A stretch of DNA of 64,000 bases, taken from positions 1 to 64,000 of the forward strand of contig NZ_NFIT01000003.1 in assembly GCF_002159495.1 (NCBI RefSeq). The letters are read 5' to 3'. A program made the translations under genes and the position numbers. Below, piece after piece: positions 6,338 to 58,810 of the stretch. The stretch's first letter is position 1, and each line of letters starts with the position of its first letter. Source of the DNA: Olsenella sp. An293. GTDB lineage: Bacteria > Actinomycetota > Coriobacteriia > Coriobacteriales > Atopobiaceae. The notes under the pieces are model-generated. The model saw only the letters and a program-made list of their open reading frames with translations, was not told the origin of the DNA and searched no databases.

Positions 6338-6435
6338 GAGGGTATGTACGCTTCTCCGACCCGCCCGTTCTTCTCGCCAAGCCTTTGACCTGCGGAAATG
6401 CAAATGCCCTGGAGCGGTGGGGTGTACATACCCTC
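6338..6435. repeat. 98-bp inverted-terminal-repeat element, copy 2
   Basis: It has the same length as copy 1. The ends are GAGGGTATGTAC and GTGTACATACCCTC, and the core is CGTTCTTCTCGCCAAGCC followed by TGACCTGCGGAAA. The right end lies about 30 bp before the crcB start, so it forms part of that gene's leader or promoter region. Confidence 0.8.
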
Positions 6436-42202: not shown

Positions 42203-42320
42203 AGGGTGTGTACACTTCCCGGTCTTCACGTTCTTCTCGGCAAGCCTCTGACCTGCTAAAACATGATTAGTCCGAACTCGGATGGTGTACACAACCACTA
42301 TGCGCAGTGTACATACCCTC
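42203..42320. repeat. Inverted-terminal-repeat element, copy 3, with duplicated right end
   Basis: The left end AGGGTGTGTACAC and core CGTTCTTCTCGGCAAGCC followed by TGACCTGC match the 98-bp family. A degenerate right end (GTGTACACAACCA, 42285) is followed by a second, exact one (GTGTACATACCCTC, 42307-42320). It lies between dhaL and the argC promoter. Confidence 0.75.
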
Positions 42321-46004: not shown

Positions 46005-47273
<1,269 letters not shown>

Positions 47274-47316
47274 GTCGCGGGGCTGCCGTTCTTCTCGGCT
47301 GGTCCTTTGTTCTTGC

Positions 47317-47486
47317 GTGCGGCGTCCGGACGTTCTGGGAACCAAAACCGTCCGGACGCCGCACCCACTCAAACAACGTGCGGGTTCCGGACGGTCTGGA
47401 CACGAGAACCGTCCGGACGCCGCACCCACTCAAACAACGTGCGGGTTTCGGACGTTCTGGGAACCAAAACCGTCCGGACGCCGCAC
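47317..47486. repeat. Hairpin array C1: three 48-nt units, 61-nt period
   Basis: Units lie at 47317-47364, 47378-47425 and 47439-47486. Each starts GTGCGG and ends CCGCAC, with an inner stem CCGGACG/CGTCCGG and a 16-nt loop such as GTCTGGACACGAGAAC. Both 13-nt spacers are CCACTCAAACAAC. Unit 1 has a perfect 16-bp stem; units 2 and 3 have two or three mismatches just inside the outer stem. Confidence 0.95.
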
Positions 47487-47740
47487 CTTTCCGCGGGGGC
47501 CGCGGCTCCCACAGGTTCTTCTCGCCCGCCTGCCGCTCACCGGGTCAAACTACCGTTTGCGAAGGTTACGCAGGACATACCGTTCGCTGACGGCAAGCCC
47601 CATGGGGCGGCAAGCTTGGGAAATTAACTCTCTCCGCAATAATATTCATCACTTATAAAACAGTTATATATGTGATACAACATCGCCACTGGCTTTCCGC
47701 GACAATGCGTTCCCACAAACGTTACGTCGAAGGGAATCTC
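47487..47740. other. Gap between array C1 and the nuclease-like gene, partly AT-rich
   Basis: The first part holds GC sequence and one GTTCTTCTC (47515-47523). From about 47625 the DNA turns abruptly AT-rich (TTATAAAACAGTTATATATG near 47655), unlike the rest of the window. It probably contains the promoter for the nuclease-like gene, and suggests imported DNA. Confidence 0.6.
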
Positions 47741-48790
47741 ATGAGTCGTGCCGTGGACGCGAGGATTACCGACCTGCTGGAGGGGGCGGCGGATAAGGGC
47801 GTCTGCTACGTGCCGCGGGGCGATGACGTCGACGCCGTCCGACGGGCCCTCTCGCGTAGGGTGTCCTCCGGTGCGGCGGTGTCTCCCGTCCGCGGGCTCT
47901 TTGCCGATGCGCGGGAATGGTCGAGCCTCGCGTCTTCCGAGCGGGCTCTGTGGATTGCACGGGGGCTGCAGGTCGCGCACCCAACGTGGACCTTTTGCGG
48001 GCCGCCCGCCGCGCTCGCCTATGGCGTGGACGTCTCCGACACGCTGGTGGGGCGCACCCATGTGGCGACACTTCCAAAGCAGTGCGGGTCGGACGGCGGG
48101 GCGGTGGCGCGCCATCCGGTGCTCGATCCGCGCGAGGGCGTCGAGGAGGTGGGCGGGCTGAGGGTGACCTCTCCGCAACAGACGGTCCTCGACTGTCTGA
48201 GGTGGACCGACTTTCCTCGTGGCCTGGGCATCATCGATTCCGCGCTTAGGACGGGATTGGTCGGTAAGGACGCGTTCGAGGACTATGCGCAGTCGATGAT
48301 GGCTCGTCGGCGCAACGTGGAGCGCGCTCTCTCGGACCTCGCCTGGGCGGACCCGCGCAGCGAGAACGGGGGAGAGTCCATTGCGCGCGGGCGGATGCTC
48401 CTGCTCGGATACGTGCGCCCGGAGCTGCAGGTCGAGGTTCCGCGCGTCGTCGAGGCGGGGGAGCCCTATCGCGCCGATTTCTGCTGGGTGCGTGCTGACG
48501 GCCGCGTCATCCTTGGCGAGCTCGACGGAAGGGGGAAATACGTTGAGGAGGAGCTCATGGGCGGCCGGGACATCGACGAGGTCCTCTCCGACGAAAACAT
48601 CCGCGGCTCTCGCTTTACGCTCTACGACGTTTCCCTGGTGAGGTTTAGCTTTGGTTTGACGGGGCGCCCGATGGAGTTTGCCGCCTTGCTCGACGAGTAT
48701 GGAGTCCCCAAGAGGGGGTCGGCGATTGCGCTGCCTGAGGGAACGAGAATGATTCCCGACTGGGACGCGCTGCACAGGAGCAACGTCTAG
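47741..48790 (+). CDS. AbiEi-like / DUF559-type predicted nuclease-fold protein
   Basis: A 349-residue protein. The N-terminal half resembles actinobacterial proteins annotated with an AbiEi-type antitoxin helical domain (RALSRRVSSGAAVSPVRGLFADAREWSSL). The C-terminal half has a PD-(D/E)XK-like layout: GES near 210, RADFCW near 245 and GELDGRGKY near 258-266. These proteins are common as orphans in Actinobacteria and their function is unknown; defence or DNA processing is speculation. The ATG at 47741 follows AAGGGA. Codon use looks less GC-biased than neighbours, the promoter is AT-rich, and hairpin arrays flank both sides, all consistent with acquisition. Confidence 0.65.
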   Translation: MSRAVDARITDLLEGAADKGVCYVPRGDDVDAVRRALSRRVSSGAAVSPVRGLFADAREWSSLASSERALWIARGLQVAHPTWTFCGPPAALAYGVDVSDTLVGRTHVATLPKQCGSDGGAVARHPVLDPREGVEEVGGLRVTSPQQTVLDCLRWTDFPRGLGIIDSALRTGLVGKDAFEDYAQSMMARRRNVERALSDLAWADPRSENGGESIARGRMLLLGYVRPELQVEVPRVVEAGEPYRADFCWVRADGRVILGELDGRGKYVEEELMGGRDIDEVLSDENIRGSRFTLYDVSLVRFSFGLTGRPMEFAALLDEYGVPKRGSAIALPEGTRMIPDWDALHRSNV

Positions 48791-48806
48791 ATCTGTCGAG
48801 AAGAAC

Positions 48807-49021
48807 GTGCGGGTTCCGGACGGTCTGGACACGAAAAACGTCCGGACGCCACACTTGTTTCAGGAACGTGCGGGTTCCGGACGGTCTGGTGGTGAGAACC
48901 GTCCGGACGCCGCACCCATTCTGGGAACGTGCGGGTTCCGGACGGTCTGGACACGAAAAACGTCCGGACGCCGCACCTGTTTGGACAACGTGCGGGTTCC
49001 GGACGGATTGTCGGACGTGCC
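48807..49021. repeat. Hairpin array C2: three 48-nt units plus a partial, 61-nt period
   Basis: Units lie at 48807-48854, 48868-48915 and 48929-48976, with a fourth beginning at 48990 that loses its right arm at the MFS stop codon (49021). Ends GTGCGG/CCGCAC (CCACAC in the first) and inner stem CCGGACG/CGTCCGG match C1. The 13-nt spacers differ in sequence (TTGTTTCAGGAAC, CCATTCTGGGAAC, CTGTTTGGACAAC) but all end AAC. Confidence 0.95.
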
Positions 49022-50247
49022 TACGCCGCGCGCTCCGGGACCTTGGTCATCACGAGGAAGCCCACGACAAACAGCACCGCGATGGAGAGCACGCCGATGC
49101 TGGAGTTTCCGGTGAGCGCCGTGAACGTGCCCACGAGGAAGGTGCCCAGGATGGCGGCGTACTTGCCAAAGATGTCGAAGAAGCCAAAGTACTCGTTGGC
49201 ACGCTCCTTGGGACAGAGCTTGCCAAACTCGCTGCGCGAGAGCGCCTGGATGCCGCCCTGGAACATGCCCACCAGGATGGCGAGGAACCAGAACTCCACG
49301 GCCGAGCGCAGGAAGAACGCCGCGAACAGGGTGATGCCAAAGTAGGCGGCGATCGCGATCAGAAGCATTCGGCGCGTGCCGTACTTGGAGGAGAGGCGCC
49401 CGTAGATGATCGCGGACGGGAAGGCCACGAACTGCGTCACCAGAAGCGCCAACACGAGCTGCGTGGAGTCGATGCCGAGGTCGGTGCCGTAGCTCGTCGA
49501 GAGCTTGATGATGGTGTGCACGCCGTCGATGTAGAAGAAGTACGCGATCATGTAGTAGCGGATGGCCTTGTTGGCCCAAATCTCGCGCAGGGTACCGGCC
49601 AGGCCGGACACGGCGCGGGAGACGGCGTGCGGCTCGCGCGGCTTGAAGTGGAGCTGCTGCACGTTCTTGAGCAGCGGCACGGTGAAGACCGCCCACCACG
49701 CCGCGGTGATGACAAACGCGATCTGCATGGCCGTCTGCAGCGTGATGCCCAGGCTCTCATAGCCCAAGACTACGCCCAGGCACGCGATGAACGGCACGCA
49801 GCTGCCGATGTAGCCCCAGGCGTAGCCCGCCGATGAGATCTCGTCCATGCGCTCGTCGGTGGTGGTGTCCACGAGCAGCGCGTCGTAGAAGACCATCGAG
49901 GAGTTGAGCGCCACCGACGAGATCACGTAGACCACGAGAAACGCCATCGCCGCGGTGACAAAGCCCATGGCCACGGTGGCCACCACGCCCGTGCCCACGC
50001 AGCCCACGATGAACTTCTTCTTCATGCCCTGCATGTCGGCGATCGAGCCCAGGATGGGCATGAGCAGCGCGATGATCAGCGAGGCGACGGTCTCGGCGTA
50101 GCTCCAGGCCACGACCACCCCGCCCTCGGGCGCAAGCGACGAGAAGTAGATGGGAATGACGCTCGTGGCGAGAAGGACGAGCGCGGAGTTGCCCACGTCA
50201 TAGACGATCCAGCTCTTCTCGGCCTTTGTCATCTTCTGATGTGCCAT
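49021..50247 (-). CDS. MFS transporter, UMF1/Atg22-like
   Basis: A 408-residue, about 12-helix transporter. WIVYDVGNSALVLLATSVIPIYFSSLA and NSSMVFYDALLVDTTTDERMDEISSAGYAWGYIGS match the UMF1 (vacuole effluxer Atg22-like) family of the major facilitator superfamily. Some relatives are thought to export amino acids; the substrate here is unknown. The ATG at 50247 follows AAAGGAA. It is convergent with the nuclease-like gene, and its stop codon cuts into the last unit of hairpin array C2. Confidence 0.9.
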   Translation of the reverse strand: MAHQKMTKAEKSWIVYDVGNSALVLLATSVIPIYFSSLAPEGGVVVAWSYAETVASLIIALLMPILGSIADMQGMKKKFIVGCVGTGVVATVAMGFVTAAMAFLVVYVISSVALNSSMVFYDALLVDTTTDERMDEISSAGYAWGYIGSCVPFIACLGVVLGYESLGITLQTAMQIAFVITAAWWAVFTVPLLKNVQQLHFKPREPHAVSRAVSGLAGTLREIWANKAIRYYMIAYFFYIDGVHTIIKLSTSYGTDLGIDSTQLVLALLVTQFVAFPSAIIYGRLSSKYGTRRMLLIAIAAYFGITLFAAFFLRSAVEFWFLAILVGMFQGGIQALSRSEFGKLCPKERANEYFGFFDIFGKYAAILGTFLVGTFTALTGNSSIGVLSIAVLFVVGFLVMTKVPERAA

Positions 50248-50435: not shown

Positions 50436-51401
50436 ATGCCTGCGATTCTCACGCACGACCTCTTTGGACGAGGCGTCCTCGAGGACGTCACCGACCTGCT
50501 CGGCCTGCGCTCCGTGGGCGAGCGCGACGCGTTCCTGCTGGGAAACCAGGGCCCTGACCCGCTCTTCTATCTGAGAGTCGACCCGCTGATGCGCAAGTGG
50601 TCGCCTTTGGGCGGCGCCCTGCACGAGTGCAGCTCGGCGGCGCTTCTCGTTGCCATGCGCGAGGCGGCGCTGCGCCTGGAGGGCCACGAGCGCCAGCTCG
50701 CACGCGCCTACGTGGCGGGATTTGCCTGCCACTGGCTGCTCGACTCCACGATGCACCCCTTCGTCTACTACTGGCAAAACGGCCTCACCTCGGCCGGCGT
50801 GCCCGGCCTCGACGAGGATGCCGCGTCGAGCGTCCACATGGAGATCGAGCGCGACTTCGACGAGATGGCGCTGCACGCGCTCACGGACAAGACCGTCGAG
50901 CGCTGGCGTCCCCACGAGCGCGTGCTCCAGGCGTCGCGCGACGTGCTCGCCGCCGTCGACAAGGTCTACTTCTACGTGGCGCTGTGGGTCTTCGGGCGGG
51001 CGATCGACCCTCGCACCTTCTCCACGGGCGTCGTCGAGTTCCGCCTCGCCCAGCGCGTCTTTGACTCTCCCTCGGGTCGCAAGCGCTCCGTCCTGGCGAC
51101 CCTCGAGCGCGCGGTGACGAGAAGCCCCTACTCGCTGGTGAGCTGCATGTCGCACCGCGCCCGCCCGGAGGACGTCTCGGACTTCGACAACCGGGGGCAC
51201 GCGCCCTGGGCCAACCCCTTCACGGGCCAGGTCTCCACGGCGGGCTTCTGGGACCTCTTCGACGCCGCCCGCGCCCGCGTCCTGCCGACCATCGACGAGC
51301 TCTTCTCGGACGGCTTTGACCTGGCCGCCTCCCGCGAGCTCACGCGCGACCTCAACTTCGAGGGCGCGCCGACCGAGCCGGACGAGGCCCCCGCGTGGTA
51401 G
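50436..51401 (+). CDS. Zinc-dependent phospholipase C family protein
   Basis: A 321-residue protein of the zinc-dependent phospholipase C / S1-P1-nuclease-like fold: AILTHDLFGRGV at the start, LLGNQGPDPLFYLRV, YVAGFACHWLLDSTMHPFVYYW (HxxxDxxxH metal ligands) and HMEIERDFDEM. Despite the name it has no signal peptide, so it probably acts inside the cell on an unknown phosphoester. The ATG at 50436 follows GAAGGGA; GCATAAT about 30 nt upstream is a possible -10. The vsr frame overlaps its end. Confidence 0.82.
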   Translation: MPAILTHDLFGRGVLEDVTDLLGLRSVGERDAFLLGNQGPDPLFYLRVDPLMRKWSPLGGALHECSSAALLVAMREAALRLEGHERQLARAYVAGFACHWLLDSTMHPFVYYWQNGLTSAGVPGLDEDAASSVHMEIERDFDEMALHALTDKTVERWRPHERVLQASRDVLAAVDKVYFYVALWVFGRAIDPRTFSTGVVEFRLAQRVFDSPSGRKRSVLATLERAVTRSPYSLVSCMSHRARPEDVSDFDNRGHAPWANPFTGQVSTAGFWDLFDAARARVLPTIDELFSDGFDLAASRELTRDLNFEGAPTEPDEAPAW

Positions 51402-51928
51402 CGTCCCCGCGCCCGGGGACCCCCGCCGCCTCGTCGGAGGCGACGCGCCACGTCATGCAGGCCAACAGGAGCAAGAACACGGGACCCGAGCTCAAGGTCC
51501 GCGCCGCGCTGCGCGAGGCGGGGCTGACGGGCTACCGGCTCCACTGGAAGATCCCCGGCCGCCCGGACGTGTGCTTTCCCGGCCGGCGCGTGGCCATCCT
51601 GATCAACGGGTGCTTCTGGCACCGCTGCCCCTTCTGCTCCCCCTCGAGGCCCAAGACGCACGCGGAGTTCTGGGAGGCAAAGTTCGAGCGCAACCGCGCG
51701 CGGGACGCCCGCGTGCGCGCCGAGCTCGTCGCCGAGGGCTGGACCGTCGTCGTGGTGTGGGAGTGTCGGCTCAAGAAGGCGCGCCTCGAGAAGACCATGG
51801 ACCAGATCGTGGACGTGGTGCGCCGGGCGGGGGAGGAGCGCCTCCCGGGGCACGTGGTCGAGATCGGCTCGCAGGGCGCCTGGCGGCTGCGCCGGCTGCG
51901 CGCGGGCCGGCGCGCGCGGCGCGGATAG
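51395..51928 (+). CDS. vsr: Vsr-family very short patch repair endonuclease
   Basis: A 177-residue endonuclease of the Vsr family that nicks DNA at T:G mismatches formed by 5-methylcytosine deamination. MQANRSKNTGPELKVRAALREAGLTGYRLHWKIPGRPDVCFPGRRVAILINGCFWHRCPFC holds the catalytic Asp, the metal-site residues and the zinc Cys/His set; EFWEAKFERNRARD follows. The GTG at 51395 overlaps the upstream stop by 7 nt; ATG 51455 would remove 20 residues. The expected cytosine-C5 methyltransferase is not in the window. A basic Arg-rich tail (RRLRRLRAGRRARRG-like) is unusual. Confidence 0.9.
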   Translation: MVASPRPGTPAASSEATRHVMQANRSKNTGPELKVRAALREAGLTGYRLHWKIPGRPDVCFPGRRVAILINGCFWHRCPFCSPSRPKTHAEFWEAKFERNRARDARVRAELVAEGWTVVVVWECRLKKARLEKTMDQIVDVVRRAGEERLPGHVVEIGSQGAWRLRRLRAGRRARRG

Positions 51929-58701: not shown

Positions 58702-58810
58702 GTGCGGCGGCGCGACGTTCTTGTCGACAGAAGTGTCGCAATCCCGCACGCCAGCCGCCGAGGTGCGGAAACGCGACGGTTTGGCCGACAAGAACGTCGC
58801 GATCCCGCAC
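58702..58810. repeat. Hairpin array C3: two divergent 48-nt units, 61-nt period
   Basis: Units lie at 58702-58749 and 58763-58810 with a 13-nt spacer. Outer ends GTGCGG and CCGCAC are as in C1/C2. The inner stem is CGCGACG/CGTCGCG instead of CCGGACG/CGTCCGG. The loop of the second unit, GTTTGGCCGACAAGAA, resembles GTCTGGACACGAAAAA of C2. Geometry is identical to the other arrays. Confidence 0.9.

Follow-up and report, generated by a model that had tools for sequence, protein, structure and literature searches.

REP-type repeats are widespread, and the RAYT transposases are the partner enzymes named for them in the literature consulted. REPINs, as defined in PMC3116915, are intergenic inverted doublets. 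The CGTC-tagged REPs are stated to have no dedicated transposase in PMC3733652, where their monomer is described as a palindrome of 8-9 bp that starts with AT and carries a short CCA-like tail. Inverted repeats are also bound by AbiEi-type antitoxins (AbiEi and Rv2827c), which recognise them in their own promoters (PMC7319586). The locus described here lies in a stretch of 64,000 nucleotides from Olsenella sp. An293 (the window), whose source genome (G000) encompasses 2.31 Mb in 35 contigs. It belongs to an arrangement in which the members of a gene family stand between palindromic repeats that are particular to each gene and occur dispersed in the genome as well. This looks like a so far undescribed partnership between an enzyme and its repeat, in bacteria of the gut and in some related ones. 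In the literature searched, no paper ties AbiEi-, Vsr- or DUF559-like genes to such repeats.

We tentatively propose, with a confidence somewhat short of even, that these genes and hairpins constitute a new class of repeat-maintaining system, selfish or domesticated, in which each AbiEi-like/nuclease allele, with a fast-evolving recognition part, spreads its own palindrome and the gene homes into it. The arms of a single cognate hairpin would be read by the AbiEi-like part, and nicking or cutting would fall to the nuclease part, probably acting on the hairpin in an extruded or single-stranded state. As the cut is repaired, hairpins would be copied into intergenic positions elsewhere, arrays would change in length by whole 61-nt units, and the gene itself would spread into arrays and so end up between two copies of its own repeat. 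Binding, cutting, copying, homing and mobility are steps that we infer, and the hairpins would be the substrates of the nuclease. It speaks against the model that a nuclease attacking dozens of places in the genome that encodes it should do harm, unless it needs a special DNA structure. If the model is true, the family may contain a missing enzyme for some REP-like repeats without a transposase, and may give a role to orphan AbiEi/DUF559-like genes in Actinomycetota. A second, unrelated type of enzyme with repeats specific to each gene would establish more than one origin for such partnerships, and the natural series of protein-hairpin pairs means that recognition rules could be read.

The features of the locus are collected in Table 1. 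As the first-pass annotation had it, seven units, counting a half unit, are arranged in two clusters with one gene between them, and the start-to-start period is 61 nt in both. All five internal spacers are 13 nt long and end in AAC; the wider claim that spacers always end in this way is borne out in both arrays here and has exceptions at other sites of the genome. The outer stem GTGCGG/CCGCAC is found in five of the six full units, the remaining one reading CCACAC at 48849-48854, and the inner stem CCGGACG likewise in five of six, the third unit having TCGGACG. The end of the downstream cluster, at first placed at 49021, has to be moved to 49005, where the half unit stops. The two flanking arrays score highest among the tandem arrays that TRF detects in the window (288 and 296, the next one 111). 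When three units were folded as single-stranded DNA they gave z-scores of -7.2, -4.7 and -5.1, with no equally stable sequence among 200 shuffles of each, and the stem pairing co-varies among 37 units of the same genome (score 0.130 against 0.067, sd 0.010, for shuffled data; 0 of 500 shuffles as high). A CRISPR array was considered and rejected, as the hairpin and not the spacer is the repeated part and the spacers are 13 nt long and partly repeated. A true CRISPR array with a period of 61 nt is present in G011 (locus L070, 2176-3342), where the agreement in period with the hairpin arrays is a coincidence.

Table 1. Positions within the window of the nuclease gene, the hairpin arrays and the two decamers nearest to them.
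Feature	Position	Strand	Description
Decamer GTTCTTCTCG	47288-47297	+	between the aminotransferase gene and the upstream array
Upstream array	47317-47486		three 48-nt hairpins with 13-nt spacers; units 47317-47364, 47378-47425, 47439-47486
Nuclease-like gene	47741-48790	+	349-aa protein; predicted AbiEi-like part, residues ~1-204, and putative Vsr/homing-endonuclease-like PD-(D/E)XK part, residues ~205-331
Decamer GTTCTTCTCG	48797-48806	-	abuts the first downstream hairpin
Downstream array	48807-48976		three 48-nt hairpins with 13-nt spacers; units 48807-48854, 48868-48915, 48929-48976
Lone left arm	48990-49005		remnant of a fourth downstream unit
Further array of the same family	58702-58810		two units, inner stem of GCGACG type, away from the nuclease gene

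The decamer GTTCTTCTCG is itself abundant. It occurs 22 times in the window (for example at 2056, 6367, 42230, 47288 and 48797) against 0.1 expected in shuffles, 531 times in G000 against 14 for a reversed control, and 100-698 times in each of the 31 genomes of the genus. Fifteen of the 22 window copies are intergenic, and copies often abut hairpins or sit inside them. The decamer is reminiscent of motifs of the DNA-uptake type or else of a common insertion mark. Leader-like stretches that resemble one another, with the form GTTCTTCTCGGCAAGCC..TGACCTGC, follow gene ends at three places in the window, 2056-2100, 6367-6410 and 42230-42275.

Searches of Pfam and NCBIfam gave nothing significant for 25 homologues of the protein, Pfam AbiEi_4 reaching an E-value of only 0.013 in one of the 25, and neither PDB sequences nor PHROGs matched the protein. 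A match to the AbiEi models of PADLOC covers residues 96-194 (E 1.5e-7). In a structure model made with 25 sequences (pLDDT 88.7), residues 4-204 superimpose on the AbiEi of S. agalactiae (Z 11.3, rmsd 6.7, 181 residues), and residues ~208-331 on I-Bth0305I (Z 9.4, rmsd 3.0, 97 residues), Vsr (Z 8.1, rmsd 2.8, 105 residues) and NGO0050 of N. gonorrhoeae (Z 8.0, rmsd 2.4). Foldseek alone gave no match at E 0.001 or better, which is counted against the model, and its best rows are largely nucleases that we class as PD-(D/E)XK-type. Residues E208, E212, E260, D262 and K266 are conserved in all 25 homologues and D246 in 24. The initial reading of the product as a PD-(D/E)XK-like nuclease is thereby backed both by the predicted fold and by conserved acidic and lysine residues. 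As modelled, the protein is an AbiEi-like part fused to a Vsr/homing-endonuclease-like, putative nuclease part. A separate Vsr gene (51395-51928, plus strand; Vsr domain PF03852, E 4.9e-18) lies 2.6 kb from the nuclease gene.

The nuclease gene is single-copy in G000, where its neighbours are genes for an aminotransferase and an MFS transporter, and homologues are present in 29 of the 31 genomes of the genus. In loci retrieved by gene, not by hairpin, tandem periods of 61 nt (42 runs) and 62 nt (14 runs) are conspicuous and each other period from 59 to 65 nt has fewer than two runs; these counts include one CRISPR array, and some loci are doubled because MFS and nuclease loci overlap. Many of the 61/62-nt arrays enclose a nuclease homologue from its two sides, and their stems are specific to each gene. 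Arrays of 60-62 nt on both sides were found for nine of 15 close homologues, for two of 58 others, one of which (L127) is at the 56% identity border, and in none of 400 control windows. The link was also measured independently of the stems, by counting the 10-mers common to the two 620-nt flanks of 73 homologues, 16 of them close (about 56% identity or above) and 57 distant. At a cut-off of at least 12 common 10-mers, 15 of 16 close homologues (median 40) and 38 of 57 distant ones (median 20) passed, compared to six of 158 controls (median 4). With the decamer masked the numbers were 14 of 16, 37 of 57 and eight of 135, the masked controls being genes whose gaps on either side measure 150 nt or more (Mann-Whitney p 1.6e-9 for close and 3e-14 for distant homologues). 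Re-pairing the flanks among the 16 close homologues reached the observed total in none of 20,000 permutations, and the flank matching is therefore gene-specific. All 14 arms noted, picked by hand one per gene from 14 of the 16 close homologues, recur upstream and downstream of the gene they belong to. Each flank of a distant homologue often carries a single long hairpin of ~65-75 nt, again gene-specific and in direct or inverted copies. Counted against the model are the failures in the flank test (20 of the 57 distant homologues, the close homologue L158 and the Tsukamurella homologue L283) as well as the eight control genes that pass its masked form. The supposed connection between arrays and gene is thus upheld in a wider form, homologues throughout the genus being bracketed by copies of one hairpin each, with a sequence that varies from gene to gene. 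The view that the arrays are unrelated to the gene, taken from a single-copy gene among many arrays, was dropped on the two-sided arrays and the flank tests. The top outlier among the controls, L229 13940-14686 in G016, has 86 shared 10-mers and is flanked by a 102-nt inverted repeat of 96% identity; part of its product appears nuclease-like by eye, with no family match and a structure model of pLDDT 36.

Bracketing is also found beyond the genus. A homologue in Collinsella aerofaciens, 34% identical, has an unrelated 57-nt hairpin, with four units upstream and two downstream at 80-81-nt spacing, and five more units of it lie at two other sites within the 200 kb sampled of 900 kb. The flanks of this homologue have 31 ten-mers in common, compared to at most 10 for 18 control genes there. 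Of three homologues in Tsukamurella, two show flanks that match (33 and 48 common 10-mers, against five for the third), and the first of these repeats folds only modestly (z -2.4). A motif scan for similar nucleases, made for CGTC REPs of other phyla in two unannotated stretches, returned one doubtful match.

A comparison of genomes with and without the gene at one site is possible, as the nuclease gene stands beside the same transporter gene in eight genomes and the aminotransferase gene lies directly there in eight others. Repeats matching on both sides are present at all eight loci with the gene, while an array is present at two of the eight loci without it, the latter scored by eye (Fisher p 0.007). 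The two are those of G016 and G018, and no array is visible at the other six. G016 carries one copy of a two-hairpin array and no gene, and G006 carries two copies with the gene between them, a pair that lends weight to the early suggestion of an acquired module; the array in G016 would be either the site before arrival of the gene or the scar of its loss. No genome turned up in which the gene adjoins this transporter but lacks repeats that match across its flanks, although such a case was looked for. Arrays at sites away from the gene were also looked for and do occur.

The stem types differ between lineages. That of the G021 gene counts seven exact units in its own genome, confined to a single contig, and is absent from the 30 other genomes, while that of the G011 and G017 genes has 37 and 24 units in these two genomes, 11 in G022, one in G025 and none in the other 27; reversed-pattern controls gave zero for both. 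The best homologue in G022 is only ~40% identical despite the 11 CGGGG-type units there, which counts against the model, and a related unit of TAGGAGC type is present in G008. Since G022 has such units without a close homologue and G008 the TAGGAGC-type unit, one genome can hold several stem types. Likewise counted against the model are G018 and G013, which are rich in hairpins and in which no homologue was detected. Among the eight alleles at the shared transporter site, mean identity is 58% for the AbiEi-like part, 84% for the nuclease part and 94% for the neighbouring transporter, and the identities of nuclease and transporter are uncorrelated (r -0.24). Arm similarity in these eight follows the AbiEi-like part (r 0.67, a value reached in 175 of 5040 permutations), with a non-significant correlation to the nuclease part (r 0.29; 1154 of 5040) and none of this kind to the transporter (r -0.15). 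Because the stems diverge with the protein and not with the neighbouring transporter, alleles and their hairpins seem to have been exchanged as one, and the likely reader of the stem is the AbiEi-like part, a suggestion which rests on eight alleles. When 14 alleles are compared, arm similarity correlates with the AbiEi-like part at r 0.57 and with the nuclease part at r 0.82 (0 of 5000 permutations for each), the higher value for the nuclease being counted against the model.

One explanation for these patterns that dispenses with enzymatic maintenance is that the hairpins are passive and gain or lose units by replication slippage and template switching, processes that would also maintain the pairing of the stems, that the gene enters or leaves arrays by ordinary homologous recombination, and that co-inheritance mimics the matching of stem and allele. 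We regard this as unlikely, and it is the alternative that survives best. The number of units at the 58702-58810 site does shift by whole units (one in G006, two in G000, three in G009 and none in G008), and the pair formed by G016 and G006 is also expected from deletion between direct repeats. However, it gives no account of why this family and not the control genes is bracketed, and it leaves unexplained both the bracketing in three genera with unrelated repeats and the dispersed copies of each stem type. In G019 the equivalent of the 58702-58810 site holds two units with that genome's own stem type. G008 carries GTGCAAAGGGGACAGTCACTTTTGCAC-type elements at 58.7 kb and at other sites where G000 has hairpins, and such an element is found again elsewhere in G008.

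The first description of a discrete locus has to be abandoned with regard to the hairpins, as the same hairpins occur at 26 further sites in G000, including 58702-58810 of the window, and the gene remains single-copy. A covariance model identified at least 58 units at 28 sites in G000, a lower bound as 150 of 2395 candidates were scored, and 27 of the sites are intergenic, the sole intragenic one being the weakest match. Under stricter filters, and with at most 61 candidates per genome scored, matches were obtained in 23 of the 31 genomes of the genus and in one of 69 genomes outside it (G069, weak). An exact degenerate hairpin pattern searched across 84,980 species was found in 20 stretches, all from Atopobiaceae-type organisms by title. 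A phage origin was considered and rejected, with no hit of the hairpin pattern in viral contigs and none of the protein in phages or, on confirmation, in 65 viral stretches. The majority of array sites compared in six genomes are not common to these genomes, and some are, for example that at 82979 in G000 with G008 among the alignments listed. Judged from such alignments, array sites common to several species would be old, and the fact that the dispersed sites are partly common to species is counted against the model. By orientation the 28 sites in G000 comprise 13 convergent, 13 tandem (including the intragenic exception) and two divergent ones, compared to 18 convergent, 67 tandem and 22 divergent background gaps of more than 60 nt in the same loci, a background that includes the hairpin sites themselves and relies on a simple purpose-made gene caller. 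Of 25 intergenic convergent or tandem sites, 21 lie within 60 nt of the 3' end of a gene.

This distribution bears on the possibility that the arrays are operators, the AbiEi-like part binding the arms and repressing its own gene while copies elsewhere serve to titrate the protein or to control further genes. The precedent is AbiEi and Rv2827c, which bind inverted repeats in their own promoters (PMC7319586), and one array does lie upstream of the gene with a fixed 61-nt unit that fits a protein ruler. Nevertheless, a matching array is also found downstream of the gene, 13 of the 28 sites in G000 are convergent and just two divergent, with 21 of 25 near 3' ends, and the nuclease domain is left without a reason; the operator explanation is thus also improbable, and stands next after that of passive hairpins. 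Sites near 3' ends and between convergent genes, with stable and co-varying stems, would suit hairpins acting as transcribed RNA elements, that is stabilisers or bidirectional terminators at the ends of genes, and as insulators for the gene family. We consider this very doubtful, as gene-specific stem sequences are not predicted by it, a consensus scan of 47200-49100 gave no terminator-like site, and the arrays have no Rfam match at gathering score. The sole Rfam match in the window is an aspS RNA motif at 89-169 on the plus strand (RF02930, 59.4 bits). Hardly credible is a mobilisation of ordinary REPINs by RAYT (Y1) transposases elsewhere in the genome: 28 of 31 genomes in the genus do have a Y1 transposase, and the hairpins share with REPINs the form of inverted doublets between genes (PMC3116915), but no Y1 match was obtained in G019, despite at least 30 units there (61 scored matches on both strands), nor in G005, which also has hairpins, and the two Y1 genes of G000 are without such a hairpin within ~1-1.5 kb. 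These two RAYT-like genes are located in L019 (G000:C5, ~16.1-17.1 kb) and L020, and a GGGACTGTCCCCAAC-type repeat beside the first differs from the hairpins.

Compared to known systems, the proposed repeat-maintaining nuclease combines elements of several. The C-terminal part is alike in fold to Vsr and to the homing endonuclease I-Bth0305I (Z 8.1 and 9.4); unlike these, the gene is bracketed by repeats, has no intron or single-copy target, and is not recognised by Pfam or NCBIfam. The N-terminal two-thirds share their fold, and the match to PADLOC models, with the AbiEi antitoxins of type IV toxin-antitoxin systems (Rv2827c, S. agalactiae AbiEi), which differ in lacking the extra C-terminal nuclease part; no AbiEii (DUF1814) toxin gene adjoins the locus, the adjoining genes being those for the aminotransferase and the MFS transporter. 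With the CGTC-tagged REPs, as described in PMC3733652, the hairpins share head-to-head dimers, inner ends of the form GACG...CGTC (or TGTC) and a location near 3' ends. In the close clade 13 of 14 arms end in GACG or GACA (GACA in L107, L109 and L110), L103 being the exception. The stems here are without the near-invariant starting AT given in that paper, and single arms are not always palindromic, those of G021, G008 and G009 type not being self-complementary by eye. Actinomycetota are absent from the phyla given there for the CGTC-tagged group, the Collinsella and Tsukamurella repeats are without a CGTC core, and in Collinsella the inner ends are neither CGTC nor TGTC. As in REPIN/RAYT systems, palindromic doublets are dispersed and mostly intergenic in many copies (at least 58 units at 28 sites), with clustered copies, a repeat-flanked enzyme gene and lineage-specific types. 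The differences are that no Y1 (HUH) transposase, the enzyme by which that family is defined, is linked to the hairpins, G019 being hairpin-rich with no Y1 match and the Y1 genes of G000 unflanked, that the enzyme is AbiEi-like and PD-(D/E)XK-like rather than Y1/HUH, and that each side carries either a strict 61-nt tandem array (in the close clade) or one long hairpin (in many distant homologues). Weighing these likenesses and differences, we put it at an even chance that the locus represents a repeat-and-nuclease system organised like REPIN/RAYT and built around an unrelated protein.
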